DNA of 39,874 bases from assembly GCA_017429695.1 (NCBI GenBank), contig JAFROK010000002.1, forward strand, positions 1-39,874, read 5' to 3'. A model generated the notes under the pieces. It ran no database searches, was not told the origin of the DNA, and saw nothing but the letters and a program-made list of their open reading frames with translations. Below, one piece after another: positions 2,320-28,321 of this stretch. Numbering within the stretch: the stretch's first letter is position 1; the number at the start of each line of letters is the position of its first letter. The DNA is from Clostridia bacterium. Lineage in GTDB: Bacteria > Bacillota > Clostridia > Christensenellales > Aristaeellaceae. Position numbers and translations under genes: made by a program.

Positions 2320-2525
2320 TTTCGCGGCTGCGGCCCAAGGAATCGCGCGCGCACCGCGGCCGGTGAATCCAACACACAATCGGCCTTCATCCGCCACTGG
2401 CGGCGGCCGTTATGTGCAGCTCGCGCACCGCGCACGGCAGGACCAAGGCTTAGCTCTGCATGTGATCCGTTACCCGGAACGAGTTCCGGACGGATCATCA
2501 TCCGATCGCCCTGGACCTTCGGTGG
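2320..2525 (+). repeat. Family E repeat, long composite copy E1
   Basis: It begins TTTCGCGGCTGCGG and ends GATCGCCCTGGACCTTCGG. Two extra hairpins are built in. One is CGGCC...GGCCG enclosing CCGCCA/TGGCGG at about 2380-2413. The other is GATCCG/CGGATC enclosing CCGGAAC/GTTCCGG at about 2463-2496. It fills the gap between the GtrA-like gene and rfbA. Confidence 0.8.
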
Positions 2526-2574
2526 AAATACCCTTTACTAAACGATAGATTCAACAAAGAGGAGGAATGAGAAC

Positions 2575-3462
2575 ATGAAAGGCATTATTCTGGCGGGAGG
2601 CGCGGGAACACGGTTATATCCTTTGACGAAGGTGACAAGCAAACAGCTTTTACCTATCTATGACAAGCCGATGGTTTATTATCCCCTGAGCACTTTGATG
2701 CTGGCGGGGATTAAGGATATTCTGATTATCTCCACGCCGCTGGATACGCCGCGGTTTGAGGCTTTACTCGGGGACGGGAGCCAGTTCGGGATTAACCTGA
2801 GCTACAAGGTGCAGCCTTCTCCGGACGGACTGGCGCAGGCTTTTATCCTGGGCGAGGAGTTTCTGGCGGGCGAAGCCGGGGCGATGGTGCTCGGGGATAA
2901 CATCTTCTACGGGAATGGATTCCGGAAGATGCTGCGGGCGGCCGTCGAGAACGCGGAGCAGAACGGACGGGCGACGGTTTTCGGATACTATGTGCCGGAT
3001 CCGGAGCGGTTCGGGGTTGTGGATTTTGACGAGAACGGGAAGGCTTTGAGCATTGAGGAGAAGCCGAAGGAGCCGAAGAGCAACTATGCTGTGACCGGGC
3101 TGTATTTCTATCCGAACGACGTGGCAAAGCGGGCGAATGCGGTGAAGCCTTCCGCACGGGGAGAGCTGGAGATTACGACGCTGAACGAGATGTACCTGGA
3201 TGACGGGCTGCTGGATGTGCAGCTGCTGGGGCGAGGGTTCGCATGGCTGGATACGGGAACGATGCAGAGCCTGCTGGAGGCCGCGGAATTTGTGGAGATG
3301 ATTCAGAGCCGGCAGGGGATTACGATTTCTGCGCCGGAGGAGATTGCGTTTATTAATGGCTGGGTTGATAAGGAAGGGCTGTTGAAGAGCGCCGAGATGT
3401 ATGGTAAGAGTCCGTATGGCGAGCATTTAAGAGCAGTGGCTGAAGGCAAAGTTAAGTATTAA
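2575..3462 (+). CDS. rfbA: Glucose-1-phosphate thymidylyltransferase (RmlA/RfbA)
   Basis: The 295-residue enzyme couples dTTP and glucose-1-phosphate to give dTDP-glucose, the first step of dTDP-rhamnose and related sugar nucleotides. The nucleotide-binding signature [11 protein letters not shown] is at residues 8-18, followed by the [18 protein letters not shown] segment. The metal-binding VLGDNIFYG and the sugar-binding EEKP and LDTGT segments are all present. Length matches the family (about 290). The start ATG has a good AGGAGG about 8 nt upstream. No rfbB, rfbC or rfbD lies next to it, so the rest of the pathway must be elsewhere. It sits between two repeat-filled gaps (families E and B). 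Confidence 0.95.
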
Positions 3463-3471
3463 GACGTTGTG

Positions 3472-3728
3472 GGCTTGGCCCGGAACCGGGAATTCCGCCG
3501 AAGGCACGTCTCGCGCCTACGGTTTTGGCGTAGCGGTTCTAAGCTCTGACTTCGCTGGCGCTCGTCAATCACTAAGAACCGACGCCAAAACAGTATCCGC
3601 AACCTCAATGGTCGCAACTCCCCACTGGGGAGCTTGCTCCCTTTCGGTTGACCTCACCTCTGACGAAATTTCCGCCACTGGCGGTCGTCAGAGGTTCGCC
3701 CTTCGGTCGGAACACCCGGTCCCAGGCC
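3472..3728 (+). repeat. Family B long hairpin, copy B1, carrying a nested family C insertion
   Basis: The outer arms are a GGCCCGGaaCCGGG-like left arm and CCCGGTCCCAGGCC on the right, with GCCGAAGG/CCTTCGGT inside. The core is GTTTTGGCGT...ACGCCAAAAC around AGCGGTTCTAAG/CTAAGAACCG. Compared with copies at 15767 and 39713, this one has 104 extra bases (3596-3699) between CAGTA and CCTTCGGT. That extra block is family C. Confidence 0.85.
3596..3699 (+). repeat. Family C module, copy C1, nested in B1
   Basis: The module runs from CCGCAACCTCAAT to GTCGTCAGAGGTTCGC. It contains the hairpin CCTCTGACGA/TCGTCAGAGG enclosing CCGCCA/TGGCGG, plus a smaller ACTCCCCA/TGGGGAGC hairpin. A second copy stands alone at about 8796-8897. 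The uninterrupted B copies serve as empty sites. Confidence 0.8.
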
Positions 3729-3797
3729 GAAAAAACAGCCGAGGGTTTACCAGCAGAACCAAAGTTATCGGACGATCTTAGGAGAAGGGGAAAAGTA

Positions 3798-4298
3798 ATG
3801 TTTGCGTATTGCCTGTTCTGCCAGACGCAGCGGTGCTCGCGGATTGCGCAGCTATTGGAGATCAAGGGGCTGAACAGGGCTTTTTCTCCCAAGATTATGC
3901 AGAAGCAGCGGGTTAAAGGGGAAAACAAGACGAAGTATGTGGACCTGCTGCCGGGATATGTTTTCGCTTTTACGGAAGAGAAGCTGGTGGATTATTCCGT
4001 ATTCTGGGGAATTGACGGGGTGATCCGGAAGGTCGGGTGCGCGGACGAGTGGTATGAGCTGCAGGGAGCGGACCGGGAGTTTGCTTTTTCGCTGATGGAA
4101 AAAGGCGGGGTTGTCGGCGGGATGAAGATTGTGAAGGTCGGCGACCAGGTGACGCTGGAGGATCCGCTGTTTGCGAACAGCCAGGGGAAGGTTACGCAGG
4201 TGGATTATCGGAAGGAGCGGGCACGCGTTGATTTTGTGTTCAGAGGGAATGCATGTCATACATGGGTGGCGTTAGAGGACGTTAAGAAGAAGGACTAA
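3798..4298 (+). CDS. NusG paralogue (LoaP-like antiterminator)
   Basis: The 166-residue protein has an N-terminal NGN domain (about residues 1-105, beginning MFAYCLFCQTQ and including the LPGYVF segment) and a C-terminal KOW domain (about 112-166, with the GDQVTLEDPLFANSQGKV turn). This is the NusG/Spt5 architecture. Housekeeping NusG normally sits beside secE and rplK; this copy sits beside polysaccharide genes, as specialised paralogues such as LoaP do. Those bind the elongating polymerase and let it read through terminators in long surface-polysaccharide operons. ATG at 3798 follows GGAGAAGGGG with 7 nt spacing. A LoaP role is inferred from context; the domain assignment is firm. Confidence 0.8.
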   Translation: MFAYCLFCQTQRCSRIAQLLEIKGLNRAFSPKIMQKQRVKGENKTKYVDLLPGYVFAFTEEKLVDYSVFWGIDGVIRKVGCADEWYELQGADREFAFSLMEKGGVVGGMKIVKVGDQVTLEDPLFANSQGKVTQVDYRKERARVDFVFRGNACHTWVALEDVKKKD

Positions 4299-4310
4299 AT
4301 TAAGCGCGTG

Positions 4311-4360
4311 CGCCCCGGGCTGCCTCAGCGTTGTGGATTTAATTACAGAACCAAAGGGTA
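4311..4360 (+). repeat. Family D repeat (solo right end of family B), copy D1
   Basis: CCCCGGGCTGCCT followed by a short spacer, TTGTGGATTTA and CAGAACCAAAGG. The same string follows the right arm of B2 (15911-15955) and occurs alone at 17463-17500 and 34871-34915. It probably is a remnant of a family B element. It occupies the short gap before the response regulator gene. Confidence 0.6.
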
Positions 4361-4389
4361 CCGTTCCTACGGGAGAGACAGAGGAGAGT

Positions 4390-5979
4390 ATGTATCAGAT
4401 ATTTGTGGTGGAGGATGAGCTGCTGATCCGGGAGAGTATCCGGCATACCATTGAGGGGATGAAGGGGCCTTACGCTTTCTGCGGGGAGGCTTCCGACGGG
4501 GAAATGGCCCTGAGCATGATGCAGGACCTGATGCCGGATATTCTGCTGACGGACATCCGGATGCCGTTCCTGGATGGGTTCGGTTTGATTTCCCATGCCC
4601 GGGCGATGATGCCCTGGCTGAAGATTGCGATTATCAGCGGATACGGGGAATTTGAGTATGCCCAGAAGGCGATTACGCTGGGGGTGGACCAGTACCTGCT
4701 GAAACCGGTGCGGCCGGCGGACCTGACGAAGGCCATTGAGGAAATGGCGGAGCGGATTGAGAAGGAACGGAACGCGACGGGAACCGCGCGGCAGGACGGG
4801 TTTGACCAGGGGGAAGTGAACCGGGTCATGACCCTGCAGTTTACGCGGGAACTGCTCTTTGGCGGGACGGATACCGGGGAACTGCTGGAGCAGGCCCGGT
4901 CGCTGAACCTGGACATTGTGCGGCCGCACTACCTGACAGCGGTGTGCTCCTTTGACCAGCAGAACCCGGACACGGGACGGATACGGAACATTGTGCAGCA
5001 GGTGATGAAGAACGAGACGGACATGCTGTATGTATTCACAGCGGCGGACCAGATGGCGCTGCTGGTTTGCGGAAACGACGAGGAGGCACTGAACGAGCGG
5101 GTATACTGGCTGATGAACATCCTGCGGCACGAGCTGCGGGAGGTTTGCCCGGTGATTACGGCGGTGGTCGGGAACTGCGCCCACCGGCTGGGGGAAATCA
5201 GCGAGACATACAAAGCGGCCGCCAGCCTGCTGCGGCAGGTGGATGGCGTGAGCCCGGGGCAGATTATCAACATCGGGGATACGGCGCAGATTACGGAGAA
5301 CATCGTCACATCCAGCGGGCCGTTCGGCGAGGAATTCGGGCAGAAGATTATGCAGGCGAAGGCGGCGGAGATTCCGGCACTATTGGATGAGGTGATGGAA
5401 TCGCCGGAGTGCGGGCAGTTTGAAAGCATGCTGATGCGGTATTACGGGCTGATTTACCTGATGAAGATTGCGGTGCAGATCATCGTCAGGAATGGCCGGG
5501 GCGGGACGGACGCGAAGGACGCAGCGGCACAGCTGAGCAGCCAGTATGATATCTTTGTGGCGTCCGGGAAGAAGGATACGTTCCGGAAGACGGCGGAGGA
5601 GCTGCTGACGGCGGCAATCAACGCACGGCAGGAAGCGCCGGCGGAGATGAAATACAGCCATGTGATCAGCCGGGCGGAGAAATATGTGAAGGAGAATTTC
5701 AGGGATCCGAATATATCGCTGATCAGCGTGGCGCAGCATGTTGGGATGAGCGCGGCGCATTTCAGCACGGTGTTTTCGCAGACGACGGGGAGGCCGTTTA
5801 TTCATTACCTGACCGGGATGAGGATTGAGCAGGCGAAGGAACTGCTGAAGACGACGAATATGAAGCTGGCGGATATCGCGATGGAGATTGGGTATAATGA
5901 GCCGAATTATTTTAGTCATGTTTTTCGGAAGACTACGGGGATGACGCCGAAGGAGTATCGGACCAAGGAAGGGGTTTAG
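4390..5979 (+). CDS. Response regulator, YesN type (receiver plus AraC-family HTH)
   Basis: The 529-residue protein has an N-terminal receiver domain (residues 1-120). It carries the acidic pair E8/D9, the phosphorylation site D55 in LLTDIRMP, and K105 in YLLKPV. The long middle region (about 130-420) is poorly conserved, as usual in YesN proteins. The C-terminal AraC/XylS DNA-binding domain (about 430-529) has two HTH units, the second in ADIAMEIGYNEPNYFSHVF. The ATG at 4390 is chosen for its AGGAGAGT site. A matching YesM kinase and a sugar-binding lipoprotein lie convergently at 6306-8770. The natural target is the sugar importer starting at 9306. Confidence 0.92.
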   Translation: MYQIFVVEDELLIRESIRHTIEGMKGPYAFCGEASDGEMALSMMQDLMPDILLTDIRMPFLDGFGLISHARAMMPWLKIAIISGYGEFEYAQKAITLGVDQYLLKPVRPADLTKAIEEMAERIEKERNATGTARQDGFDQGEVNRVMTLQFTRELLFGGTDTGELLEQARSLNLDIVRPHYLTAVCSFDQQNPDTGRIRNIVQQVMKNETDMLYVFTAADQMALLVCGNDEEALNERVYWLMNILRHELREVCPVITAVVGNCAHRLGEISETYKAAASLLRQVDGVSPGQIINIGDTAQITENIVTSSGPFGEEFGQKIMQAKAAEIPALLDEVMESPECGQFESMLMRYYGLIYLMKIAVQIIVRNGRGGTDAKDAAAQLSSQYDIFVASGKKDTFRKTAEELLTAAINARQEAPAEMKYSHVISRAEKYVKENFRDPNISLISVAQHVGMSAAHFSTVFSQTTGRPFIHYLTGMRIEQAKELLKTTNMKLADIAMEIGYNEPNYFSHVFRKTTGMTPKEYRTKEGV

Positions 5980-5990
5980 GCTTCAGGCGG

Positions 5991-6071
5991 AGGAGATCCT
6001 TGCTCTGCATGTGATTTGTTACCCAAATCACAGATTTGGACAAATCATCATTGCTTCGCTCAGGATGACAG
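5991..6071 (+). repeat. Family F repeat, copy F1, with an embedded covarying hairpin
   Basis: It begins AGATCCTTGCTCTG and ends GCTTCGCTCAGGATGACA, close to a string seen again at 37725-37750. Inside is GATTTG/CAAATC enclosing CCAAATC/GATTTGG, the same fold as the loop hairpins of E1 and E9 with different bases. Confidence 0.6.
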
Positions 6072-6142
6072 GCAGGCGAGTGCTTTTGAAATGAAGTTTG
6101 TAGGTGTTGTGCAGAACCAAGAAGGGTAGTCGAATTGCGGGG

Positions 6143-6217
6143 GCGGAACGGGAAAGGGACAGTTCTTTTCGTTCCGGCCGAACACGTAACGAAAAAAACC
6201 GTCCCTCCGTTCCGCGG
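6143..6217 (+). repeat. Family A palindromic repeat, copy A2 (intact)
   Basis: The outer stem CGGAACGG (6144-6151)/CCGTTCCG (6207-6214) encloses GGGACAGTT...ACCGTCCC (6156-6205). The inner stem is TTCGTT/AACGAA. It lies between the convergent regulator and lipoprotein genes. Confidence 0.8.
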
Positions 6218-6251
6218 GCATGCTCCTATGGGTATTCTGCAGAATTGGGGG

Positions 6252-6305
6252 ATTTCGCGGCTGCGGCCGCGACCAGGGCTTTCCGATCGCCCTGGACCTT
6301 CGGGG
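6252..6305 (+). repeat. Family E repeat, minimal copy E2
   Basis: The minimal form has two hairpins: CGCGGC-TGCG-GCCGCG, then CCAGGGC-TTTCCGATC-GCCCTGG, ending ACCTTCGGGG. It abuts the 3' end of the lipoprotein gene (stop at 6306). Confidence 0.85.
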
Positions 6306-7310
6306 TCAGTAACCTCTAGTGGAAATAAGTTCTTCTGTTAAGTTATCCTGGGAGAAGGCGGTTTCTTCTACGTAGGTGTATTTGGGTGGGGTTTTGCCTT
6401 CTTTCAGCTGTTCTATGAGGTTTTTCACTCGGGGACCGTGGAGGGGGTTGCATTCCACGTCGTAGGCTATTTCTCCCTTGAGGACCAGGCGGAGGGCTGT
6501 GCTGGCAGCATCGAAGGAGATTATATAGACATCTTTGCCGGGAGTCAGGCCGGCTTTTTTTAATGCGTCGATGGCGCCGTAGGACATATTGTCGTTTTCG
6601 GAATAGATTACATTGATGGTATTGCCGGAGCGGTCCAGGAGGCCTTTTTCAATGACCTCCTCGACTAACTCCTGGCCTTTGGCCTGGGTGAAATCGCCGG
6701 ACTGGCGGAAGGCGAGGGTCCAGTTATCATGGGCTTTGAGGCCTTCATCCAGGCCTTCGGTGCGGCCGATCTGGGCGGAGGAACCTATATTGCCCTGGAG
6801 GTGGATGATATTCAGGGGTTGATCGGCGAAGGTTTTTTCCATCCATTCGACGGCGGTTTTGCCTTCCTGGCGGAAGTCGCTGCCGACCCAGCAGGTGAAG
6901 AGGCTTTCATCCTCAATTTCGATCATGCGGTCCACGATGATGACCGGGATGCCGGAATCCCGGACGCGGGAAAGTATCGTTTCCCAGCCGCGCTCGGTGG
7001 TCGGGGCGAGGACGATATAATCCACGCCCTGGTTGATGAATTTATAGAGATCCACGATTTGCTGCTCCTGCTTCTGCTGGGCATAGCGGAGGTCCAGGCG
7101 GTAGCCGTTTTCAGCGGAAAGGGCGCTTTCCATGCTGGCGGTATTGGCCACGCGCCAGTCGCTCTCGGTGCCGACCTGGGAGAAGCCGACGGAGATCAGC
7201 TTTTCCTCCGGGGCAGGGGGTTCCTGCGGGGCGGTGGAGCAGGCGGAGAGGCAGAGCAGGAGGCTGAGGAGCAGGGCAAAGCGCCCTGCTTTTTTTGCTT
7301 TACGGGTCAT
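6306..7310 (-). CDS. YtfQ-like sugar-binding lipoprotein (sensor component)
   Basis: The 334-residue protein has a lipoprotein signal peptide with the lipobox LSAC (Cys24), then a type 1 periplasmic-binding fold. Its VGFSQVGTESDWR, QQKQEQQI and GSSAQIGRTEG segments are very close to what I recall of E. coli YtfQ, the galactofuranose-binding protein. The gene overlaps the upstream histidine kinase by 4 nt (ATGA), so the two are translationally coupled. No permease or ATPase is adjacent. That pairing suggests it presents ligand to the kinase, as in XylFII-LytS systems, rather than feeding a transporter. Ligand identity is inferred. GGAGG lies about 10 nt before the ATG. Confidence 0.88.
   Translation of the reverse strand: MTRKAKKAGRFALLLSLLLCLSACSTAPQEPPAPEEKLISVGFSQVGTESDWRVANTASMESALSAENGYRLDLRYAQQKQEQQIVDLYKFINQGVDYIVLAPTTERGWETILSRVRDSGIPVIIVDRMIEIEDESLFTCWVGSDFRQEGKTAVEWMEKTFADQPLNIIHLQGNIGSSAQIGRTEGLDEGLKAHDNWTLAFRQSGDFTQAKGQELVEEVIEKGLLDRSGNTINVIYSENDNMSYGAIDALKKAGLTPGKDVYIISFDAASTALRLVLKGEIAYDVECNPLHGPRVKNLIEQLKEGKTPPKYTYVEETAFSQDNLTEELISTRGY
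7270..7296 (+). terminator. Terminator-like hairpin antisense to the lipoprotein gene
   Basis: AGCAGGGC/GCCCTGCT (8 bp, loop AAAGC) is followed directly by seven T residues on the plus strand. It lies inside the signal-peptide coding region of the minus-strand lipoprotein gene. It could stop antisense transcripts that read through from the regulator gene. Confidence 0.45.
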
Positions 7311-8770
7311 GGATGGTTATCCTCCTTCCGGATGGCGGTGACGCCCTGGCGGGGGAGGCGGACGGTGACGGTGGTGCCCTCCCCGGGGACGCTGGAAAAA
7401 GAAAGGCCGTAGGGGCTGCCGCAATAGAGGCGGATGCGCTGGTGGACATTTTTCAGGCCCAGGCCGCTATGGTGTTCCTCGAAATTGCCGGACTGCAGGG
7501 TGGCCAGCTGGTCGGCGGTCATGCCGGCGCCGTTATCCCTGACATAGAGGAGGAGATCCTCGCCGGATTCCTCGCCGGTGATGGTGATGAGGCCCCGGCC
7601 GCGGCGGTTTTTGATGCCGTGGTAGAGCGCGTTTTCAATGAGGGGCTGGAGGATCAGCTTGGGGACGGTGCAGTCCTGGAGTTCCTCCGGGACGGAGATT
7701 TCCCAGGAGAGGATATCGCTGTAACGGATCTGCTGGATTTCCAGATAGGAACGGGCCTGGATGAGCTCGGAGCGGAGGGAGATGATATCCTCGCCCCGGT
7801 TGAGGGAATTGCGGAAGAAGGTGGAGAGGCTGTTGACCATATCGATGACATCCTCCTCGCGCTGGGATTCGGCGAGGATGGCGATGGAGTCGAGGGTATT
7901 ATATAGGAAGTGGGGGTTGATCTGGGCCTGGAGGAGCTCCAGCTCCGCCCGGTGGAGGGACTGCTGGTCCCGGCGCTGGCGGTCGATGAGGGAGGAGATG
8001 CGGGAGGCCATTTTATCGAAATTGCGATCGAGGATTTTGAGCTCGACGATATCGGTTTCGACGGGGTGGCTGGTGAAATTATCCGAGCCGAACTGCTCCG
8101 CCTTGCGGGAGAGGGCCTGCATGGGGGCGGTGATGCGGCGGCTGACGCGGAAGGAATACATGAGGAGCAGGACGAAGAGGGCGATGACGATGGCGGCGGT
8201 GAGGGCCAGGAGGATCGGGATCTGGCGGTTGATGACGCCGCGGAGGCGGGCGAGCTCGCGGACTTCGTCGGAGAGGAAATCGTGCATGTAGTCCTCGATG
8301 ATGCCGGTGAGGCCGGTCTGGCCGGAGATGTTGCGGTCCAGGAGCTCCATGCGGAGGTCGTAGGATTTGGTTTCGGCGATTTCGATCATATACATGCGGA
8401 GATTGCTGCACATATCCAGCATGCTGCGGACGCGCTCGCGGTTATCCGGGAGGGTGGTTTCGGTGGCGAGGCGTTTGAGGACTTTTTCGGCGTTGTCCAG
8501 TTCGGACATGGGGAGTTTCTGGACGGAGGATTCGCTGGGGGGAAGGTTGACGTGTTTATACATTTCCAGGTCGATGTTGGCTTTGAATTCCTGGTTGAAG
8601 TCGGCAGCGGTGGTGGCGCAGGCCAGGACGCTGGAGGCCTGGCGGCTGACGGAGATGAGGACGAAGGCGAGGACGGCGATGATGGTTGCCATTGCCACGG
8701 ACATGGTGATGATGAGCCTTCGGATGTGCTGCTGGATTGTGCGTGGGTTTACCGGGTTAACTTGCTGCAT
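7307..8770 (-). CDS. Sensor histidine kinase, YesM/LytS-like
   Basis: This 487-residue membrane kinase has a first membrane span at about residues 19-41. An extracellular helical sensor region follows (about 42-183), then a second span (184-206), a HAMP segment (208-262) and a His_kinase domain with phospho-acceptor H287 in QINPHFLYN. The HATPase domain has LIENALYHGIKNR (N box), DNGAGM and GLGLKNVHQRI. This is the YesM class that partners YesN regulators, and one is encoded convergently at 4390-5979. The gene is first in a two-gene operon with the sugar-binding lipoprotein. A purine-rich AAGGGG lies 11 nt before the ATG. Confidence 0.93.
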   Translation of the reverse strand: MQQVNPVNPRTIQQHIRRLIITMSVAMATIIAVLAFVLISVSRQASSVLACATTAADFNQEFKANIDLEMYKHVNLPPSESSVQKLPMSELDNAEKVLKRLATETTLPDNRERVRSMLDMCSNLRMYMIEIAETKSYDLRMELLDRNISGQTGLTGIIEDYMHDFLSDEVRELARLRGVINRQIPILLALTAAIVIALFVLLLMYSFRVSRRITAPMQALSRKAEQFGSDNFTSHPVETDIVELKILDRNFDKMASRISSLIDRQRRDQQSLHRAELELLQAQINPHFLYNTLDSIAILAESQREEDVIDMVNSLSTFFRNSLNRGEDIISLRSELIQARSYLEIQQIRYSDILSWEISVPEELQDCTVPKLILQPLIENALYHGIKNRRGRGLITITGEESGEDLLLYVRDNGAGMTADQLATLQSGNFEEHHSGLGLKNVHQRIRLYCGSPYGLSFSSVPGEGTTVTVRLPRQGVTAIRKEDNHP

Positions 8771-8795
8771 GTTACATTTTTCCCCTTCCCCTACT

Positions 8796-8897
8796 CCGCA
8801 ACCTCAATCGACGCGACTCCACACTGTGGAGTTCGCTTGTTTCGGTTGACCTCAGCTCTGACGAGATTTCTGCCACTGGCAGTCGTCAGAGCTTCGC
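8796..8897 (+). repeat. Family C module, free copy C2
   Basis: CCGCAACCTCAAT to GTCAGAGCTTCGC, with GCTCTGACGA/TCGTCAGAGC enclosing TGCCA/TGGCA. The bases at the stem ends differ from C1 but pairing is kept. The copy is flanked by a 10-bp direct repeat, CCCCTTCCCC, at 8782-8791 and 8898-8907. This may be an insertion footprint. Confidence 0.75.
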
Positions 8898-8969
8898 CCC
8901 CTTCCCCGTGCTCTTACTTTGTGGATGTTTTAGTTGATTTGCACGGGGACGGGGGATATTTAGTGCGCC

Positions 8970-9052
8970 CGGGGGCTCTGCCCCCGTACCCCCAGGGAGT
9001 TTCGCGGCTGCGGCCGCGACCAGGGCTTTCCGATCGCCCTGGACCTTCGGGA
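8970..9052 (+). repeat. Family E repeat, minimal copy E3, with a GC hairpin before it
   Basis: GGGGGC-TCT-GCCCCC (about 8971-8985) precedes a minimal E element (9000-9051) nearly identical to E2. It lies in the divergent gap between the kinase operon and the importer. Confidence 0.8.
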
Positions 9053-9091
9053 TGCATCTATCTTTATTGAGTGCATGTAAAATGCGATTTG

Positions 9092-9097
9092 ATTATA
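9092..9097 (-). promoter_or_regulatory. Candidate extended -10 promoter for the kinase operon
   Basis: On the minus strand TATAAT is preceded by TGT, an extended -10. No convincing -35 is seen. It would give a leader of about 310 nt running through the complements of E3 and C2. Confidence 0.4.
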
Positions 9098-9128
9098 ACA
9101 AATTTTAGCAGATGACGAATAGTATAAA

Positions 9129-9252
9129 CAAAAAAAGTATCGATTTTCCAAAAAAAGTACTGATTTTGGACAAAAAAGACAAAGGAACCAAAAAAGTTAC
9201 CTGATGTTTTCCAAAAAATGTGAATGTTATTGACAACGGGAGCGATTATACT
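9129..9252 (+). promoter_or_regulatory. Phased A-tract direct repeats and promoter region of the sugar importer
   Basis: Five A-tracts of 6-7 bases are centred near 9133, 9153, 9175, 9193 and 9215, about two helical turns apart. The first two sit in near-identical units (AAAAAAAGTA, two variable bases, GATTTT). They lead to TTGACA (9230-9235) and TATACT (9247-9252). The 11-nt spacing between these is too short for a standard promoter, so one of them is probably not used. The region should be intrinsically bent and could hold YesN/AraC-type regulator sites. Confidence 0.55.
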
Positions 9253-9305
9253 GACACCATCAAAGGCTCGGAAAGAGCCGAATAAAGATTTAGGAGGAAG
9301 AACCC

Positions 9306-10351: not shown

Positions 10352-10391
10352 TTGGGGGGCTTTCCGATCGCCCCCCAGACCCCCTTCGGGC
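10352..10391 (+). repeat. Family E repeat, half copy E4 (second hairpin only)
   Basis: TGGGGGGC-TTTCCGATC-GCCCCCCA followed by CCCTTCGGGC. The loop is identical to that of E2, E3 and E8, while the stem bases are all G/C and still pair. Confidence 0.75.
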
Positions 10392-10409: not shown

Positions 10410-10550
10410 ATTGGGGGAGCTTTGTGATCGCCGTTACCCATTTTCACTGCATTGGCATTTGTGAAAATAGACGGCTGTAACATGGGAAGCGTTACCCAAA
10501 TCAAAGATTTGGACACTTCCGCATTCGATCGCCCTGGACCTTCGGCCCAT
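10410..10550 (+). repeat. Family E repeat, composite copy E5
   Basis: It starts GGGGGAGCTTTGTGATCGCC and ends TCGATCGCCCTGGACCTTCGG. Between are a hairpin around ATTTTCAC/GTGAAAAT and a CCAAATC/GATTTGG hairpin like the one in F1. It lacks the first E hairpin. Confidence 0.6.
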
Positions 10551-10580: not shown

Positions 10581-10641
10581 GGTTTCGCATCTGCGGATGC
10601 GACCAGAGGCTTTCCGATCGCCTCTGGACTCTTCGGCCCGA
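10581..10641 (+). repeat. Family E repeat, copy E6 with compensatory changes in both stems
   Basis: The first stem is CGCATC-TGCG-GATGCG where other copies have CGCGGC-TGCG-GCCGCG. The second is CCAGAGGC-TTTCCGATC-GCCTCTGG. Both loops are unchanged. This copy is the clearest evidence that pairing, not sequence, is kept. Confidence 0.85.
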
Positions 10642-15696: not shown

Positions 15697-15766
15697 TTGC
15701 AATTGCTCCTTTTGAGATAGTGAGTGTTTATGCAGAACCAGGGGGATAAATGGCTTGGTTGCGTTG

Positions 15767-15955
15767 GGCAGCCCCTGGTCCGGGTATTTCACCGAAGGCA
15801 CGTCTCGCGCCTACGGTTTTGGCGTAGCGGTTCTAAGCTCTGACTTCGCTGGCGCTCGTCAATCACTAAGAACCGACGCCAAAACAGTACCTTCGGTTGG
15901 AACACCCGGCCCCGGGCTGCCTCTTGGTTGCGGGTGTTGCTGCAGAACCAAGAGG
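15767..15955 (+). repeat. Family B long hairpin, copy B2, with family D tail
   Basis: The outer arms GGCAGCCCC/GGGCTGCC, then CCGGGT/ACCCGG, ACCGAAGG/CCTTCGGT and GTTTTGGCGT/ACGCCAAAAC, form a hairpin of about 155 nt. The tail CTCTTGGTT...AACCAAGAG (15922-15953) is a further small hairpin. This copy is uninterrupted at the site where B1 carries family C. Confidence 0.85.
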
Positions 15956-17520: not shown

Positions 17521-17594
17521 GTGGAACAGAGGGGACAGTTCTCTCACGTTCCGGCCGAACACGGAACGGAGAAAACCGTCCCCGTCAGTTCCAC
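17521..17594 (+). repeat. Family A palindromic repeat, copy A3
   Basis: The outer stem GTGGAAC (17521-17527)/GTTCCAC (17588-17594) encloses GGGACAGTT...ACCGTCCCC. Its right half is the seed of the 72-bp tandem array that follows. Confidence 0.8.
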
Positions 17595-17862
17595 AGGCAT
17601 AGTCCGGTCTGGTACGTAAATATGCAGAACAAAGAGGACGGAGAAAACCGTCCCCGTCAGTTCCACAGGCATAGTCCGGTCTGGTACGTAAATATGCAGA
17701 ACAAAGAGTACGGAGAAAACCGTCCCCGTCAGTTCCACAGGCATAATCCGGTCTGGTACGTAAATATGCAGAACAAAGAGGACGGAGAAAACCGTCCCCG
17801 TCAGTTCCACAGGCATAATCCGATCTTGTATGTAAATATGCAGAACAAAGAGGATGGAGAAG
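17567..17862 (+). repeat. 72-bp tandem repeat array, four units and a degenerate fifth
   Basis: CGGAGAAAACCGTCCCC recurs at 17567, 17639, 17711 and 17783, with a decayed start (TGGAGAAG) at 17855, so the period is exactly 72 bp. Each unit contains the right arm of family A plus TATGCAGAACAAAGAG. Units differ at only a few bases, indicating recent duplication. Because 72 is a multiple of 3, reading frames stay open across it on both strands, but none has a ribosome-binding site. It sits upstream of the murA promoter. Confidence 0.85.
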
Positions 17863-19954: not shown

Positions 19955-20062
19955 GTTTCGCGGCTGCGGCCGCGACCAAAGGGCTTTCCCTATCCAACGC
20001 TTAAACCGCCTTCATCTGCCACTGGCAGCGGCGGTATAAGCGCCCTTTGGAATCCTTCGGCA
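19955..20062 (+). repeat. Family E repeat, copy E7 with hairpin-bearing loop, inside the riboswitch
   Basis: CGCGGC-TGCG-GCCGCG, then CCAAAGGGC/GCCCTTTGG. The second loop is replaced by a hairpin, GCTTA/TAAGC enclosing CCGCC/GGCGG and TGCCA/TGGCA. Confidence 0.8.
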
Positions 20063-20110: not shown

Positions 20111-20170
20111 GGTTTCGCGGCTGCGGCCGCGCCAAAGGGCTTTCCGATCGCCCTTTGGAATCCTTCGGGG
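20111..20170 (+). repeat. Family E repeat, minimal copy E8, inside the riboswitch
   Basis: CGCGGC-TGCG-GCCGCG, then CCAAAGGGC-TTTCCGATC-GCCCTTTGG and CCTTCGGGG. It is the simple-loop counterpart of E7, 50 bp downstream of it. Confidence 0.85.
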
Positions 20171-21382: not shown

Positions 21383-21400
21383 AAAACGGAGGAAACCATT

Positions 21401-22453: not shown

Positions 22454-23205
22454 CAACACGGGAACTTTCGGTCCGCTACGGGACAAAGACCGCGGTGGAC
22501 AACATCAGCTTCCGCGCCTCAGCAGGGGAATGGTGGATGATTGTCGGGCCGAACGGCGCCGGGAAATCTTCCCTGGCCGGCGCGCTGACCCGCACCGTTC
22601 CGTATAGTGGCGAGGCATATCTGAACGAAAGGGAACTGAAGAGCTATTCCCACCGGGAATTTGCACGGAAAGTGGGGATATTATCCCAGAACAACAGCAA
22701 TATATATGCTTTTACGGTTGATGAAGTGGTGTCGCTTGGACGGTATGCCTGGCGGAACGGGTACTTCAGTGGGACGGATGCGGAAGGAAAGGACCGGATC
22801 CGGGAGGCACTGGAGAAAACCGGGCTGACGGAGATGCGGCAGCGGAGCATGCTGAGCCTTTCCGGCGGGGAATGCCAGCGGGTTTTCCTGGCGCAGGTGA
22901 TGGCGCAGGATCCGCAGGTGATGATCCTGGATGAGCCGGCGAATCACCTGGACCTGCCGTTTCAGAAGCAGCTGTTTGAACTGATCCGGGAATGGCTGAA
23001 GACGCCGGGACGGCTGGCGATCACCGTGACCCATGACCTGAACATCGCAAAGCGGTACGGGAGCCACGCGCTGCTGATGAACGAAGGGAAGGCCGTGGGC
23101 TGCGGGCCGGTGGATGAGGTTATGACAAAAGAAAACCTGGAACAGGTTTACGATATGGACATATACGAATGGATGAGGGAAAGTTTGGAAATGTGGGATA
23201 AATGA
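22447..23205 (+). CDS. btuD: Cobalamin-type ABC ATPase
   Basis: The 252-residue ATPase has Walker A GPNGAGKSS (about residues 32-40), a Q-loop in ILSQNNSN, the LSGGECQRV signature, Walker B VMILDEPANHLDL and the switch His in VTHDL. This is the FecE/BtuD class. The start GTG at 22447 is preferred: it begins the conserved TTRELSVRYG strand, has AGGGAGGGAAAGG just upstream, and overlaps the permease stop by 7 nt. The longer open frame upstream is only the permease gene read in another frame. It powers uptake and ends the operon at the terminator at 23204. Confidence 0.93.
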   Translation: MVTTRELSVRYGTKTAVDNISFRASAGEWWMIVGPNGAGKSSLAGALTRTVPYSGEAYLNERELKSYSHREFARKVGILSQNNSNIYAFTVDEVVSLGRYAWRNGYFSGTDAEGKDRIREALEKTGLTEMRQRSMLSLSGGECQRVFLAQVMAQDPQVMILDEPANHLDLPFQKQLFELIREWLKTPGRLAITVTHDLNIAKRYGSHALLMNEGKAVGCGPVDEVMTKENLEQVYDMDIYEWMRESLEMWDK

Positions 23206-23234
23206 AAAAGTGGCCGAATTCGACCACTTTTTTT
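23204..23234. terminator. Bidirectional terminator between btuD and the Nudix gene
   Basis: AAAAAGTGGCCG/CGACCACTTTTT around AATT, with A-run and T-run on either side. It can serve both convergent operons. Confidence 0.85.
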
Positions 23235-23250
23235 ATTTGGGCTTTACGGA

Positions 23251-23817
23251 TCAGATGCCGAGGATCCGGGCGGCTTTGAGGACGGCCACCTGGGTTTTGG
23301 CATCGGAGATTTTGCCTTCCATGACATCCTGCACCAGGTCCTTCAGGGGGACGGCATAGATATCCAGGAATTCATCGGCATCCAGGTCCTGGGCGCCTTT
23401 ATGGAGGCCCCGGGCGAGGTACATGGTGATGTATTCGTCGGAATAGGCTGGGGCGGGATGGAAGTCGCCGATTTCGGTCCAGGAGTCGGCGGTGTAGCCG
23501 GTTTCCTCCCGGAGCTCCCGCTGAATGGCGGAGAGGCGGTTTTCATCCGGGGCGTCGAGCTTGCCGGCGGGGATTTCGAGGATGACCCGGTCCAGCGGGT
23601 AGCGATACTGGCGCTCCATGATGACATCGCCGTTATCCAGGACGGGGATGACGCAGACGGCGCCGATATGGCGGATGACTTCGCGGACGGTGAGGCTGCC
23701 GTTGGGCAGGGCGACCCGGTCGCGCCTGACGTGGAGGATGACGCCGTCGAAGATGTCTTCAGAAGAGAGCTTCGTTTCGCGAAGACGCTTGTTTTCCCGG
23801 TCAATGTCCCAGTGCAT
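23251..23817 (-). CDS. Nudix hydrolase, ADP-ribose pyrophosphatase type
   Basis: The 188-residue enzyme is of the NudF/YqkG kind, which splits ADP-ribose to AMP and ribose-5-phosphate. The Nudix box reads GKLDAPDE, NRLSAIQ, RELREETGY. Its catalytic REXXEE core is intact, but there is one extra residue between the first Gly and the first Glu compared with GX5E. The N-terminal strands, with REVIRHIGAV and ERQYRYPLDRVILEIPAG, match ADP-ribose-specific members. It lies 22 nt downstream of alaS on the same strand, so the two are probably co-transcribed. AAAGGA sits 7 nt before the ATG. Confidence 0.9.
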   Translation of the reverse strand: MHWDIDRENKRLRETKLSSEDIFDGVILHVRRDRVALPNGSLTVREVIRHIGAVCVIPVLDNGDVIMERQYRYPLDRVILEIPAGKLDAPDENRLSAIQRELREETGYTADSWTEIGDFHPAPAYSDEYITMYLARGLHKGAQDLDADEFLDIYAVPLKDLVQDVMEGKISDAKTQVAVLKAARILGI

Positions 23818-23839
23818 AGGGAAATCCTTTCTATGGGGG

Positions 23840-25675
23840 TTACTGCTTCGGTGCGATGGTAGCCTTGATGCGGCGGACGCCGGCTGAAGAGGATTCTTCC
23901 TTGCGGATTTTGAAGGAGCCCAGGTCGCCGGTGTTTTTGGCGTGGGGGCCGCCGCAGATTTCGAAGGAATAATCGCCCATCTTATAGGTGCGGACGGTTT
24001 CGCCGTACTTGCTTTCGAAGAGGCCGATGGCGCCCTTTGCCTTGGCTTCCGGAACGGTCATTTCCTCGCAGACCACGGGGACCTTCGCATCGATGGCGAC
24101 GTTGACCAGGCGTTCGACCTCCTGGATTTCCTCGGGGGTCATTTTACGGCCGAAGCTGAAGTCGAACCGGAGGCGCTCGGTGGTGATGTTGGAGCCCTTC
24201 TGGGCCACTTCGTCGCCCAGGACCTTGCGCAGGGCTGCGTGGAGCAGGTGGGTCGCGGTATGCAGCTTCGCGGTTTCCTCATTCTGCTCGGTGAGGCCGC
24301 CCTTGGCAGCGCCTTCCTGCTTGCTGATGGCCTGGTGCTCCTTGAAGGCTTCGGCAAAGCCCTTGGCATCCACGGTCAGGCCTTCTTCAGCGGCCAGCTC
24401 TTCGGTGAGCTCCAGCGGGAAGCCGTAGGTATCGTAAAGGCGGAAGGCCTGCTTGCCGCTGATTTCGGTTTCCGGCTGATAGGACGGATCCTTCTGGGCC
24501 ATGAACTCATTCTTGCGGCGGATGCCGGAGATGCACTTGGTGAACTCCTTCATGCCGGTGGCCAGGGTGGCTTCGAAGCGGGCGGCTTCCTTCATGATTT
24601 CATCCAGGATATAGGCTTCCTTTTCCACGAGAAGCGGATAGGCTTCGTCGTAAATCTGCTCGATGAAGATTTTGCTGACTTCGGCCAGGACGGCGGATTC
24701 CAGGCCCAGCTGCCGCGTATAACGGATGGCGCGGCGGAGCAGGCGGCGCAGGATGTAGCCGGCGCCGACGTTGGAGGGCAGGATGCCGTTGACATCGCCG
24801 ATGAGCATGGTGGAGGTGCGGATATGGTCCGCTACGATACGCATGGCCTTCTGCGCGTCGGGATCGTTATCGTAGCTGCGGCCGGATTTCTCCTCCAGGT
24901 GCTTGATGACGGGGAGGAAGAGGTCGGTCTTGTAACCGTCGGTGAGGCCGTTGAGGAAGGCCAGCATCCGGTCCAGGCCGAAGCCGGTATCCACGTTTTT
25001 ATTGGCCAGGGGGGCATAGCCGTCCGCATTCTTGACATACTGCATATAGACGTCGTTGCCGATTTCCACATACCGTCCGCAGCCGCAGGCCGGGCCGCAG
25101 TTGGGGCCGCAGGGCTTGTTATGGCGGGGATAGAACCATTCGTTATCCGGGCCGCAGGGGGTGCCGGTGGTGCCTTCCAGTTCCCACCAGTTATCGGACT
25201 TGGGCAGGTAGAAGATATGCTCCGGCTTGATGCCGACTTCCTTGAGGAGGTTGGCGGTTTCTTCATCCCGGGGAGCGGCGTCGTTGCCTTCGAAGACAGT
25301 GGAGCAGATTTCATTGCCGTCCAGGCCGAAGACTTTGGTCAGCAGGTCGTAAGACCAGCGGGTCTTTTCCTTTTTGAAATAATCGCCCAGGGACCAGTTG
25401 CCCATCATCTCAAAGAAGGTGAAATGGGTCGGGTCGCCGACGGATTCGATATCCACGGTGCGGACGCAGCCCTGCACGTTGCACAGGCGCTTCTTTCCGG
25501 AGGGATGATCCTTGCCCAGGAGATAGGGCATGAGCGGCTGCATGCCGGCCACGTTGAACATGACGCCGGTGGTTCCGTCCCCGATGAGGGAGACGGCGCC
25601 GATATTGATATGTTCCCGTTCCTCATAGAAACGGATCCAGGCATTTCTCAGTTCCTTGGAAGAGATTCCTTTCAT
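23840..25675 (-). CDS. alaS: Alanyl-tRNA synthetase, short form without C-Ala domain
   Basis: This 611-residue enzyme charges tRNA-Ala. The class II catalytic core, with MFNVAGMQPLMPYLLG and GYILRRLLRRAIRYTRQLG, is complete. The editing domain has its zinc/catalytic motifs HTATH (472-476) and CGGPH (574-578). The protein stops soon after, at VRRIKATIAPKQ. Usual bacterial AlaRS continues for some 250 residues with a coiled coil and the C-Ala domain; none is encoded here and no fragment follows in the 22 nt before the Nudix gene. ATG at 25675 is chosen because AAGGAG is 10 nt upstream; a TTG at 25684 would be only 1 nt from it. A strong promoter precedes it. Confidence 0.93.
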   Translation of the reverse strand: MKGISSKELRNAWIRFYEEREHINIGAVSLIGDGTTGVMFNVAGMQPLMPYLLGKDHPSGKKRLCNVQGCVRTVDIESVGDPTHFTFFEMMGNWSLGDYFKKEKTRWSYDLLTKVFGLDGNEICSTVFEGNDAAPRDEETANLLKEVGIKPEHIFYLPKSDNWWELEGTTGTPCGPDNEWFYPRHNKPCGPNCGPACGCGRYVEIGNDVYMQYVKNADGYAPLANKNVDTGFGLDRMLAFLNGLTDGYKTDLFLPVIKHLEEKSGRSYDNDPDAQKAMRIVADHIRTSTMLIGDVNGILPSNVGAGYILRRLLRRAIRYTRQLGLESAVLAEVSKIFIEQIYDEAYPLLVEKEAYILDEIMKEAARFEATLATGMKEFTKCISGIRRKNEFMAQKDPSYQPETEISGKQAFRLYDTYGFPLELTEELAAEEGLTVDAKGFAEAFKEHQAISKQEGAAKGGLTEQNEETAKLHTATHLLHAALRKVLGDEVAQKGSNITTERLRFDFSFGRKMTPEEIQEVERLVNVAIDAKVPVVCEEMTVPEAKAKGAIGLFESKYGETVRTYKMGDYSFEICGGPHAKNTGDLGSFKIRKEESSSAGVRRIKATIAPKQ

Positions 25676-25730
25676 AAGACGCAAACTCCTTTACAATCAA
25701 GACTTGAACGGCTTGCAGATGTACCCGGAC

Positions 25731-25759
25731 ATTATAACAAAACGTTTGGTTGATTGCAA
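25731..25759 (-). promoter_or_regulatory. Promoter of alaS, overlapping the ftsY promoter region
   Basis: On the minus strand: TTGCAA (25754-25759), 17 nt, TATAAT (25731-25736). On the plus strand a weaker TTGATT (25750-25755), 18 nt, TAAACT (25774-25779) may drive ftsY from the same DNA. No T-box leader is present in front of alaS. Confidence 0.7.
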
Positions 25760-25850
25760 CGGGGTACATGTGGTAAACTATAAGGCAGTTTATCCGGATT
25801 CTTCCCCGGGACGAAACGGAGCGGAGAATCCTTTTTTACGGAGGTTCGGC

Positions 25851-26765
25851 ATGAGCGAAGAGAAAAAGAAAGGCCTGTTTGCCCGGCTGCGGGAAGGACT
25901 GAGCAAGACCCGGGGCAACATGACCGAGAAGGTTGACGAGATGGTCCGGGAGAACCGGAAGATCGACGAGGATTTTTATGAGGAGCTGGAAGACATCCTG
26001 CTGATGGCAGACTGCGGGCTGAAGGCGACGACGGTGATCATCGACGAGCTGCGGGACCGGGTGAAGGCCGGGAAGGTGAAGGACGCGGCGCAGGCCCGGG
26101 AAATGCTGAAGGAGATCATGGTTGAGCAGATGAACATTCCGCGGCCGCCGCTGAAGTGGCCGATGGTGATGCTGCTGGTGGGCGTGAACGGCGTCGGGAA
26201 GACGACGACCATCGGGAAGCTGGCGCTGCGGTTCCAGTCCATCGGGCGGAAGGTGATGCTGTGCGCCGGGGATACGTTCCGGGCGGCAGCGGCGGAGCAG
26301 CTGACCGTATGGGCGGAGCGGGCCCGGGTGCCGATTGTGAAGCACGCGGAAGGCGCGGATCCGGCGGCGGTTGTGTTTGACGCGATCAAGTCGGCCAAGG
26401 CGCAGCAGGCGGATTTGTTGATTATTGATACGGCCGGGCGGCTGCATAACAAGAAGAACCTGATGGACGAGCTGAGCAAGATGCGCCGGGTGATTGACCG
26501 GGAGTATCCGGAGGCGGATACGCGGTGCATTCTGGTTCTGGACGCGACGACCGGGCAGAACGGGCTGAACCAGGCGCGGGCTTTTAAGGAAGTGGCGGAG
26601 ATTAACGGGATTATCCTGACCAAGCTGGACGGGACCGCGAAGGGCGGGATTGCTTTGGCAATCCGGCAGGAGCTGGAGGTGCCGGTGTGGTATGTTGGGG
26701 TTGGCGAGGGAATTGATGATTTGCAGCCTTTCAACGCCAAGGACTTTGTTGAGGCTTTGTTTTAA
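25851..26765 (+). CDS. ftsY: Signal recognition particle receptor FtsY
   Basis: The 304-residue GTPase docks the signal recognition particle at the membrane. After a short basic start (EEKKKGLFARLREGLSKT) comes the helical N domain. The G domain has P-loop GVNGVGKTTT (residues 111-120), DTAGRLHNKKNLMDEL, the LDATTGQNGLNQARAF motif that separates FtsY from Ffh, TKLDGTAKGG and the closing GEGIDDLQPFN. The long acidic A domain of E. coli is absent, as usual in Firmicutes. ATG at 25851 has GGAGG 6 nt upstream. In many relatives it follows smc; here it stands between alaS and glyS. Confidence 0.96.
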   Translation: MSEEKKKGLFARLREGLSKTRGNMTEKVDEMVRENRKIDEDFYEELEDILLMADCGLKATTVIIDELRDRVKAGKVKDAAQAREMLKEIMVEQMNIPRPPLKWPMVMLLVGVNGVGKTTTIGKLALRFQSIGRKVMLCAGDTFRAAAAEQLTVWAERARVPIVKHAEGADPAAVVFDAIKSAKAQQADLLIIDTAGRLHNKKNLMDELSKMRRVIDREYPEADTRCILVLDATTGQNGLNQARAFKEVAEINGIILTKLDGTAKGGIALAIRQELEVPVWYVGVGEGIDDLQPFNAKDFVEALF

Positions 26766-26767
26766 GG

Positions 26768-26796
26768 TTGACAAACTAGGAAACGAAATTTATGAT
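26768..26796 (+). promoter_or_regulatory. Promoter of glyS
   Basis: TTGACA (26768-26773), 17 nt, TATGAT (26791-26796). It starts 3 bp after the ftsY stop, and the resulting leader is only about 30 nt, too short for a T-box. Confidence 0.8.
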
Positions 26797-26832
26797 AGGC
26801 AGGATCTGTAAAGGAATCAGGAGGAAATGACA

Positions 26833-28212
26833 ATGGCTGAACTGACCATGGACAAGCTGGTGGCACTGTGCAAGAACCGGGGATTTATTTTCGCGGGATC
26901 CGAGATTTACGGCGGACTGGCGAATACCTGGGATTACGGCCCGCTGGGCGTGGAATTCAAGAACAACGTGAAAAAGGCCTGGTGGCAGAAGTTTGTGCAG
27001 GAGAGCAAGTATAATACCGGACTGGACTGCGCGATTCTGATGAACCGCGAAGTTTGGGTGGCCAGCGGCCATGTGGGCGGTTTCAACGATCCTTTGATGG
27101 ACTGCAAAGCCTGCAAGGCGCGGTTCCGGGCGGACAAGCTGATTGAAGACTTTACCAAGGGCGAGGAGACCGGCGACGGATGGACGAACGCTGAATTGGA
27201 GAAGTTCATTGCTGAGCATGATATTGTATGCCCGGTATGCGGCAAGAAGGACTTTACCGGCATCCGGCAGTTCAACCTGATGTTCAAGACCTTTGCGGGC
27301 GTGAACGAGGACAGCGCGAACGAGATTTACCTGCGGCCGGAAACTGCCCAGGGCATCTTCGTCAACTTCCAGAACGCCATGCGGACTACCCGGAAAAAGC
27401 TGCCGGCGGGTATTGCCCAGATCGGTAAATCCTTCCGGAACGAAATTACCCCCGGAAACTTCATTTTCCGGGTGCGTGAGTTTGAGCAGATGGAGCTGGA
27501 GTTCTTCTGCAAGCCGGGCGAGGACCTGGAGTGGTTCAACTACTGGCGCGGATTCTGCAGGGACTGGCTGCTGAGCCTGGGCATTAAGGAAGAGAGCCTG
27601 CGGCTGCGGGACCATGAGCCGGAGAAGCTGGCCTTCTACTCCAAGGCTACGACGGACTTTGAATTCCTGTTCCCCTTCGGATGGGGCGAGCTGTGGGGCG
27701 TTGCGGACCGGACGGACTACGACCTGACGCAGCACCAGAACCATTCCGGCAAGAGCATGGAATACCTGGATCCGGTGACCAACGAGAAGTATATTCCTTA
27801 CTGCATTGAGCCCTCCCTGGGCGTGGACCGGGCGGTGCTGGCCTTCCTGTGCAACGCTTATGAGGAAGAGGAGCTGGAGGGCGGCGACGTCCGCACCGTG
27901 CTGCACCTGCATCCGGCCCTGGCGCCTTACAAGGCTGCCGTGCTGCCGCTGCAGAAGAACAAGCTGGGCGAACTGGCGGGCAACATCCATGCCGAACTGG
28001 CGAAGTATTTCCCGGTGGAATACGACGAGACCGGATCCATCGGCAAGCGGTACCGCCGGCAGGATGAGATCGGCACGCCGTTCAGCATCTGTGTTGACTT
28101 TGAAACCGAAGAGACCCAGAGCGTGACCATCCGCGACCGCGATACCATGCAGCAGGAGCGGGTGCCGCTGAGCGAGGTTCGGAAGTATATTGAGGATCGG
28201 ATGAGGTTCTGA
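26833..28212 (+). CDS. glyS: Glycyl-tRNA synthetase, alpha2 type
   Basis: The 459-residue class II enzyme charges tRNA-Gly. It is the single-chain dimeric type, not the alpha/beta type. Motif 1 region [19 protein letters not shown], a four-cysteine site (CKAC and CPVC) in the insertion, motif 2 [19 protein letters not shown] and motif 3 [14 protein letters not shown] are all seen. The anticodon-binding domain fills the last 110 residues. ATG at 26833 is preferred: AGGAGG (26819-26824) is 8 nt away, whereas the ATG at 26827 is only 2 nt away. It has its own promoter. A family E repeat starts directly after the stop. Confidence 0.95.
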
Positions 28213-28321
28213 GATTTCGCGGCTGCGGCCGCGACCAAAGGGCTTAGCGGTGCATGTGAACCGTAACCCGGAACAAGTTCCGGACGGTTCATCATCCGAT
28301 CGCCCTTTGGAAACCTTCGGG
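28213..28321 (+). repeat. Family E repeat, copy E9 with a hairpin-bearing loop
   Basis: CGCGGC-TGCG-GCCGCG, then CCAAAGGGC/GCCCTTTGG. The loop contains GAACCG/CGGTTC enclosing CCGGAAC/GTTCCGG. The outer stem bases differ from E1 (GATCCG/CGGATC) by compensatory changes. It begins at the base after the glyS stop. Confidence 0.85.

Follow-up and report, generated by a model that had tools for sequence, protein, structure and literature searches.

The question raised by this stretch of DNA, the first 39,874 nucleotides of contig JAFROK010000002.1 of a Clostridia bacterium (assembly GCA_017429695.1; hereafter the window), is why a short palindromic repeat, here called E, keeps its base pairing from copy to copy while the letters of its stems change. 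A sequence-only reading of the window had located nine copies and described them as hairpins with fixed loops and covarying stems; related sequence was found at all nine sites, within a few bases of the starts it gave. It overlooked a pairing between the loop and a downstream tail, a mirror segment ahead of the tail TTCGG, the abutment of elements on stop codons, and the abundance of the repeat beyond the window. We regard E as probably, although by no means certainly, a non-autonomous interspersed repeat of gut Clostridia that is conserved as a folded single strand and recognised by its shape. Letters that change under a constant fold suggest that it is the shape, and not the sequence, that is read by the copying machinery or by the cell. 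In its genome (labelled G000; 3.03 Mb, 60 contigs) the window is contig 38; other genomes are labelled G### and individual loci L###.

Comparison of copies shows a putative fold built of an optional hairpin 1 (hp1, mostly with a UGCG loop), a purine-armed hairpin stem of 7–10 bp (S1), a 9-nt loop UUU-CCGA-UC, a helix between this loop and the tail (S2), and L3, the segment running from the S1 3' arm to the tail TTCGG. In S2, CCGA of the loop faces TCGG of the downstream tail, forming a pseudoknot, so that the loop, previously taken as merely fixed, is instead one side of a second helix. Changes were counted in 48 of the 49 distinct 37-nt sequences found with 9-nt arms, one having been dropped; in these, 97.8% of pairs over S1 and S2 were standard. 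Cells changed on both sides numbered 77, against 22.5 (standard deviation 4.6) after shuffling, a value reached in 0 of 500 shuffles, and 27–30 when the pairing was slid by one; the stem covariation proposed from the nine window copies thus holds on a wider set. Two cruder tallies did not exceed the shuffles: pairs showing a two-sided change (6 versus 5.0; 154/500 shuffles) and further pair types (17 versus 15.0; 71/500). Within S2, C-G was replaced by G-C on both sides in 8 of the 48 sequences: pair 13-37 was CG in 36, GC in 8, UG in 2 and other in 2, pair 16-34 was AU in 33 and GU in 15, and the two middle pairs were nearly invariant (48/48 and 47/48 unchanged). Among 14 genomes searched, loop and tail were both changed at seven places, all in G394 and all GCGA/TCGC, and GCGG/TTCGC copies also occur at L078, L343, L374 and L376.

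A search for mirror hairpins with any loop, which yielded the GCGA/TCGC variant, returned the E loop as nearly the sole recurrent loop in G000 and G404, the remaining matches looking like chance; a generic search for hairpins with loop-tail pairing was noisy and served solely to spot loop variants. Pseudoknot-free RNA folding recovered S1 in 7/7 elements tried and hp1 in the 6/6 having one (z from -1.5 to -4.7), and 259 of 322 copies were free of faults in the first seven S1 pairs. The hp1 loop was TGCG, which we take to be a UNCG-type loop, in 158 of the 214 hairpins found before S1 (327 copies), 14 of these 214 being the insert hairpin of a G396 variant. That variant (L150, L167 and others; n = 14) carries an extra hairpin, GGTCCG CAGC CGGACT, in the 5' arm of S1, giving a three-way junction. 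Hybrid elements (L280, L187, L007, L008) join the 5' arm of one stem type to the 3' arm and L3 of another. After TTCGG (158 copies), a weak consensus is seen, with G at base 1 (73), C at base 4 (86) and A at base 5 (71).

The segment L3 varies with the S1 arm: CCAGGGC is accompanied by ACC, CCAGAGGGC by ACTCC, CTGAGGGGC by ACTCCC and TAAGGAGGC by AAACCTC. In each case L3 complements the purine arm in parallel order and equals a mirror copy of the 3' arm. This was assessed on 105 arm/L3 types out of 419 matches, with overlapping loci left uncollapsed and copies without hp1 directly after coding sequence included. Opposite an arm G, L3 had C at 382 of 394 positions (A 6, T 5, G 1); opposite an internal arm A it had T at 19 and A at 9 of 28, and opposite a basal arm A it had A at 62, T at 5, C at 2 and G at 2. 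The rule G:C, A:[AT] held at 477 of 493 positions, compared with 388.3 (standard deviation 6.5, maximum 412) when L3 was swapped among types of equal aligned length (0/5000 permutations), although the types are related sequences and the figure is therefore no phylogenetic test. At positions where the 3' arm has T opposite an arm G, L3 nonetheless tracks the arm (5/5 positions in three types). Asymmetric arms (GAGG, GAGGG, GGAG) rule out a Watson-Crick helix between L3 and the arm, and ordinary strand copying makes no mirror matches. Judged by its letters, the L3-S1 match follows the code expected of a three-stranded helix: on the written strand C.GC and T.AT, where A is an exception, and on the complement the purine-motif code (G.GC, A.AT or T.AT, as given in PMC4666352). 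A purine tract lying just before hp1 (187 copies) is complementary to L3-TTC, with a mean score of 11.56 versus 8.96 for shuffled letters; with exchanged L3 the score is 11.31 (maximum 11.63), so that the match is not clearly specific to an element's own L3 type.

As for which strand folds, single faults in S2, tallied within near-identical subfamilies, comprised 16 G.T, 3 A.C and 2 others (with 7 two-sided changes), favouring the written strand, as does the UNCG-type loop of hp1. Single faults in S1 (15 A.C, 3 G.T, 2 other) favour the complement; they were counted in copies with exactly one fault over the inner six of seven pairs, and eight copies with a fault in the outermost pair were excluded. 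The occurrence of A facing A between L3 and S1 likewise fits the purine motif of the complement, and PMC4666352 cites purine-motif triplexes as unable to form in RNA. Taking events as independent, two-sided binomial tests gave 0.008 (15 versus 3) and 0.004 (16 versus 3). Within near-identical subfamilies, S1 showed no asymmetry (10 G.T, 10 A.C and 11 other single changes), after discounting the misaligned G396 extra-hairpin variant, to which 17 spurious events at each of four S1 pairs were due.

Searching with a core-plus-tail pattern (GCTTTCCGRTCGCN5-25TTCGG, in which a core with two tails within reach may count twice), we found 24 matches in G000 (16+8); 17 other Clostridia genomes, selected as carriers of the repeat, had between 5 and 412 apiece (for example G394 412, G396 326, G391 283, G404 153), and the reversed pattern gave none in any genome. 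Copy number ranged from 0 to 412 over 12 genomes of the G396 genus. The pattern was present in 15 of the 24 relatives from the window's genus and in none of 16 other genomes of its order. In a class-wide draw of 391 genomes the bare 15-mer occurred in two, the source genome included. A reference-genome collection held at least 118 stretches with the bare 15-mer; among the matches listed, 32 contain the full element by our test, and all of these are titled Clostridia, Clostridiales or Ruminococcus. In IMG/VR the full element was, by our test, present in 48 of 65 stretches with the pattern. No Rfam family matched the window at the gathering threshold, and in six element-bearing loci searched up to an E-value of 1 just a T-box and a cobalamin leader appeared, at other positions. 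A search of the literature for the core (15-mer and 11-mer, in DNA and RNA letters), with subscription journals mostly outside its scope, returned only the 11-mer, in papers unrelated by title.

These comparisons bear out the sequence-only reading in that pairing is kept as sequence changes. The family multiplies in some lineages, counts differing among relatives. The possibility that the copies are simple drifted duplicates of one sequence fails between lineages, on both the S1/S2 and the L3 comparisons, whereas within one genome copies are often identical: 143 of 208 near-matches did not differ from their template in stem, loop, L3 or tail (high-copy genomes, few sources), and source copies differ from genome to genome. 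Near identity within a genome together with matching stems that differ between lineages suggests that selection on the fold would work through a few amplifying source copies.

Elements lie between genes: in the fetched stretches, with gene positions from a home-made gene finder, just 4 of 204 fell inside predicted genes. Flanking genes (n = 174) were convergent at 51 elements, divergent at 31 and tandem at 92, where intergenic length alone predicts 35.6, 40.5 and 97.8. In G000 and G404, the two lower-copy genomes examined, a co-directional stop codon lies at the start (-6 to +12) of 25 of 56 elements and an antisense stop at the end of four; an element placed there in sense would be transcribed as a 3' untranslated region (UTR) if transcription runs on. 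The tail TTCGG is followed by variable sequence, and we saw no T-run after the GC hairpin of the kind that marks an intrinsic terminator. At the E9 site, all 23 relatives inspected (of 30 matching) end the gene in the same TGA and have no element core within 150 nt, L308 carrying a bare CCTTCGG. A terminator-like hairpin with a T-run follows the stop in 18 of these 23; the 100 nt after E9 hold a hairpin by the same simple test, but it has no T-run. The idea that E9 lies upstream of a terminator kept by relatives was accordingly dropped. At a second site, on contig C39, an intergenic gap of 268 in G000 holds two elements starting at the stop codon, with a terminator-like hairpin downstream of them (by eye); the gap is 46 to 255 and without an element in 10/10 comparable relatives, nine further loci not being comparable. 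A third site, C19, was left unused because relatives match one flank only. The simplest reading of the E9 and C39 alignments is gain in G000 rather than loss in all the others. No target-site duplication, which together with terminal inverted repeats would mark a MITE, was seen by eye at the two element-free sites compared, no systematic search having been made.

Convergent neighbours less than 300 bp apart were of different stem type in 24/24 cases in G394, 9/9 in G391 and 5/6 in G396, with start-to-start spacings of 110-130, 148-162 and 219-231. Divergent close neighbours were also all of different type (9, 3 and 2 in G394, G391 and G396), same-strand close neighbours were few, and G404 and G000 had no convergent close pairs. 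An inverted pair of equal elements would make a long unstable palindrome, which may explain why the paired types differ. A rule that close inverted pairs differ in type would give stems a concrete cause for changing while the fold stays constant.

We looked for a factor that might move such a repeat. The link to a RAYT/TnpA-like transposase suggested earlier found no support: among six element-bearing genomes searched (metagenome-assembled and possibly incomplete), Y1_Tnp was not found in G391, G394, G396 or G406, G404 had fragments only, and G000 has two full-length RAYT-like genes (C3:7120-7449 and C39:41915-42244; L229 and L230), which are flanked by GGGGACGGTTCC-type palindromes and have no E element within the 2-3.3 kb fetched around them. 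A RAYT/Y1 transposase was rejected as partner, not having been found in four of six genomes and not being adjacent to E in G000. The window repeat D9 resembles the GGGGACGGTTCC-type palindromes. Nor was any transposase family present among 24 genes with E elements on both sides, of which 19 belong to ordinary Pfam families and five have no match at an E-value of 1e-5; an undescribed transposase is possible among these five.

The mechanism we propose would run as follows. With L3 lying as a third strand along S1, the three parts S1, L3 and S2 would pack into a compact, knotted triplex hairpin, of pyrimidine motif on the written strand or purine motif on the complement. A trans-acting factor, probably a nuclease or transposase and in most of these genomes presumably not of RAYT/Y1 type, would recognise this fold over the stem letters, and new copies would land between genes, in G000 and G404 often in sense directly at a stop codon. 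A stronger version, on balance doubtful, is that E belongs to a new class of mobile repeats defined by a three-dimensional fold of hairpin, loop-tail knot and third strand, held by three-way co-variation although almost all stem letters vary; a non-RAYT factor would recognise the knotted triplex on single-stranded DNA or RNA and set copies down in sense at stop codons. If so, neighbouring pairs would have to differ in stem type, and this would drive stem change.

Several observations weigh against a shape-recognised repeat. No trans-acting factor was identified, five of the 24 flanked genes having no Pfam match, and the strand signals conflict. Few elements of the high-copy genomes G396, G394 and G391 begin at a stop codon (3 of 135). 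In the 14 genomes searched, the loop changed alone at six places, five times to T, which keeps a U.G wobble (one of these, in G404, may be no element), and once to G, which does not fit; the tail changed alone at four places; and at L168 the loop TTTGCAATC and the tail TTCGC pair incompletely. L3 is short (2-5 triplets) and C-rich, 12 of 394 arm G positions face A, T or G, the relatedness of the types limits the permutation result as said above, and L3 may pair instead with the purine tract before hp1 that it complements.

The placement at co-directional stops in G000 and G404, rarely mirrored on the other strand, is what would be expected if E were a host-beneficial 3' UTR RNA, a very stable pseudoknot that, sitting at the stop codon, bars exonucleases or delays ribosomes as they terminate, and that has spread by selection and recombination instead of as a mobile repeat. 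That S2 tolerates G.U on the sense strand, that hp1 has a UNCG-type loop and that a terminator-like hairpin lies downstream of the elements at C39 all agree with such a role, but copy number swings from none to hundreds within one genus, G396, G394 and G391 show no sense-strand preference, the flanking genes are diverse, A.C faults outnumber G.T in S1, and no T-run follows E9; we consider this account unlikely, if worth keeping in view. A rather similar, low probability attaches to E being a known kind of intrastrand-triplex DNA repeat that acts in genome instability, its pseudoknot incidental. Intergenic placement, copy-number swings and two-type inverted pairs are features also of TM_ECO (PMC4666352), and A or T at A-T pairs suits the purine motif; the block order and triplex length differ, however, and the co-variation of loop and tail in S2 would be left unexplained.

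REP/RAYT is the best-known system of short intergenic palindromes with hundreds of copies and inverted pairs, all of which E shares, but the Y1_Tnp results set out above, with the full-length genes of G000 embedded in a different repeat, make a REP/BIME family mobilised by a RAYT (Y1) transposase very unlikely. We give equally little credence to mutational self-copying. Quasipalindrome correction, in which template switching corrects hairpins, could yield perfect stems without selection, in keeping with the many faultless copies and with two-type hybrids such as L280 and L187; yet template switching produces inverted or direct repeats rather than the mirror match of L3 and S1, and faulty and hybrid stems remain uncorrected. 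Compared with these accounts, a repeat recognised by its fold remains the reading that we prefer.

The closest kin of E are the BoxC/PIT/TM_ECO repeats of E. coli and other proteobacteria (Holder et al. 2015, PMC4666352, with Hoyne and Maher cited therein). Both groups carry three adjacent triplex-capable blocks on one strand, are intergenic and are patchy among close relatives; E and TM_ECO also have in common inverted pairs made up of two different types (5/5 TM_ECO pairs combine type A and type B) and the lack of a found association with known mobile elements. E shows the intrastrand-triplex pattern, in which a single strand carries a purine block, a pyrimidine block and a third block that matches, as the 477 of 493 positions above indicate. 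The TM_ECO block pattern in that paper (C-rich stem, loop of 3-6, G-rich stem, loop of 3 and G-rich third strand, 9 nt each) is not found in E elements: TM_ECO runs pyrimidine-purine-purine, whereas the written strand of E runs purine-pyrimidine-pyrimidine (R-loop9-Y-Y). E further differs in its third strand of 2-5 nt, a 9-nt loop that pairs with the tail, its Clostridia hosts and stem letters that vary by lineage. From its predicted fold, then, E is kin to known intrastrand-triplex repeats, the new features being block order, triplex length and pseudoknot. Bacterial triplex-forming repeats have been reported without an accepted role, genomic instability being the speculation in PMC4666352.

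Like REP/BIME elements, E is a short palindrome that lies between genes in many copies and at times forms inverted pairs, but it has no RAYT link that we could find and possesses a putative pseudoknot and third strand. Base triples occur in H-type RNA pseudoknots, such as those of telomerase RNA and some riboswitches; E has their S1-loop-S2-tail topology and a strand along the stem, but is dispersed, in up to 412 copies, and matched no Rfam family. Integron attC sites, marked by RYYYAAC/GTTRRRY core sites and an integrase, came into consideration in view of the placement of E at stop codons. The 105 natural stem/third-strand types make a third strand testable by co-variation, which is rarely possible from base pairs alone, and the exact placement at stop codons, together with element-free sites in relatives, makes function (as a 3' UTR RNA) and mobility testable in one system.

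Table 1. Positions in the window of the nine E copies, their parts, and other repeats and genes observed.
Feature	Position	Strand	hp1	S1 5' arm	Loop	S1 3' arm	L3	Tail	Remarks
E1	2318-2522	+	5' half 2323-2335, broken by insert	2443-2449	CCGATC 2502-2507	2508-2514	2515-2517	2518-2522	directly follows TAA (2315-2317); hairpin insert within loop
E2	6253-6303	+	6256-6271	6273-6279	6280-6288	6289-6295	6296-6298	6299-6303	
E3	9000-9050	+	9003-9018	9020-9026	9027-9035	9036-9042	9043-9045	9046-9050	
E4	10353-10389	+	absent	10353-10360	10361-10369	10370-10377	10378-10384	10385-10389	
E5	10412-10545	+	absent					10541-10545	degenerate composite with inserted hairpins
E6	10583-10636	+	10586-10601 (CGCATC/GATGCG)	10603-10610	10611-10619	10620-10627	ACTC 10628-10631	10632-10636	
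E7	19956-20060	+	19959-19974	19976-19984		20042-20050	20051-20055	20056-20060	loop swapped for hairpin insert; CCGA lost
E8	20113-20168	+	20116-20131	20132-20140	20141-20149	20150-20158	20159-20163	20164-20168	
E9	28213-28320	+	28218-28233	28235-28243	CCGATC 28296-28301	28302-28310	28311-28315	28316-28320	hairpin insert in loop ahead of CCGATC; abuts stop codon 28210-28212
Lone loop match	31617	-							without stem or tail (by eye)
GTTACC/GGAC module	2447-2512, 28241-28306, 6008-6065, 10481-10538								second hairpin module
Mirror hairpin	8970-8993								CGGGGGC-TCT-GCCCCCG then TACCCCC; just upstream of E3
D9	1757, 6157, 17534								
DUF772/DDE transposase gene	65-1621	-							
72-bp unit	17566-17853								about four tandem copies
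159-nt repeat	3471-3629, 15765-15923, 39712-39870								three copies, 77-97% identical to reference copy

In the window itself (Table 1), the 9-nt loop TTTCCGATC is intact in five copies on the + strand (E2, E3, E4, E6 and E8), and five of the nine have the full core GGC-TTTCCGATC-GCC; allowing up to two mismatches, GGCTTTCCGATCGCC has five matches against 0.33 expected and a maximum of two in 100 shuffles. The remaining copies have hairpin inserts in the loop or in hp1 (E1, E7 and E9) or are degenerate (E5). The stem letters first quoted are right for E2-E4 and E6-E9, while the second stem of E1 reads CCAAGGC/GCCCTGG, with one A.C mismatch. E1 and E9 retain CCGATC despite a hairpin of ~50 nt inside the loop. 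The TAA before E1 ends a 165-aa open reading frame that was not called by the gene finder, and the stop codon before E9 belongs to a class II tRNA synthetase gene. The hairpin just upstream of E3 has the same mirror design with a different loop. The loop insert of E1 and E9 is the GTTACC/GGAC module, which has GTTACC/GGAC conserved around an internal loop and stems that vary yet stay complementary (by eye). The part of E9 that comprises S1 and the insert has matches at five further places in G000.

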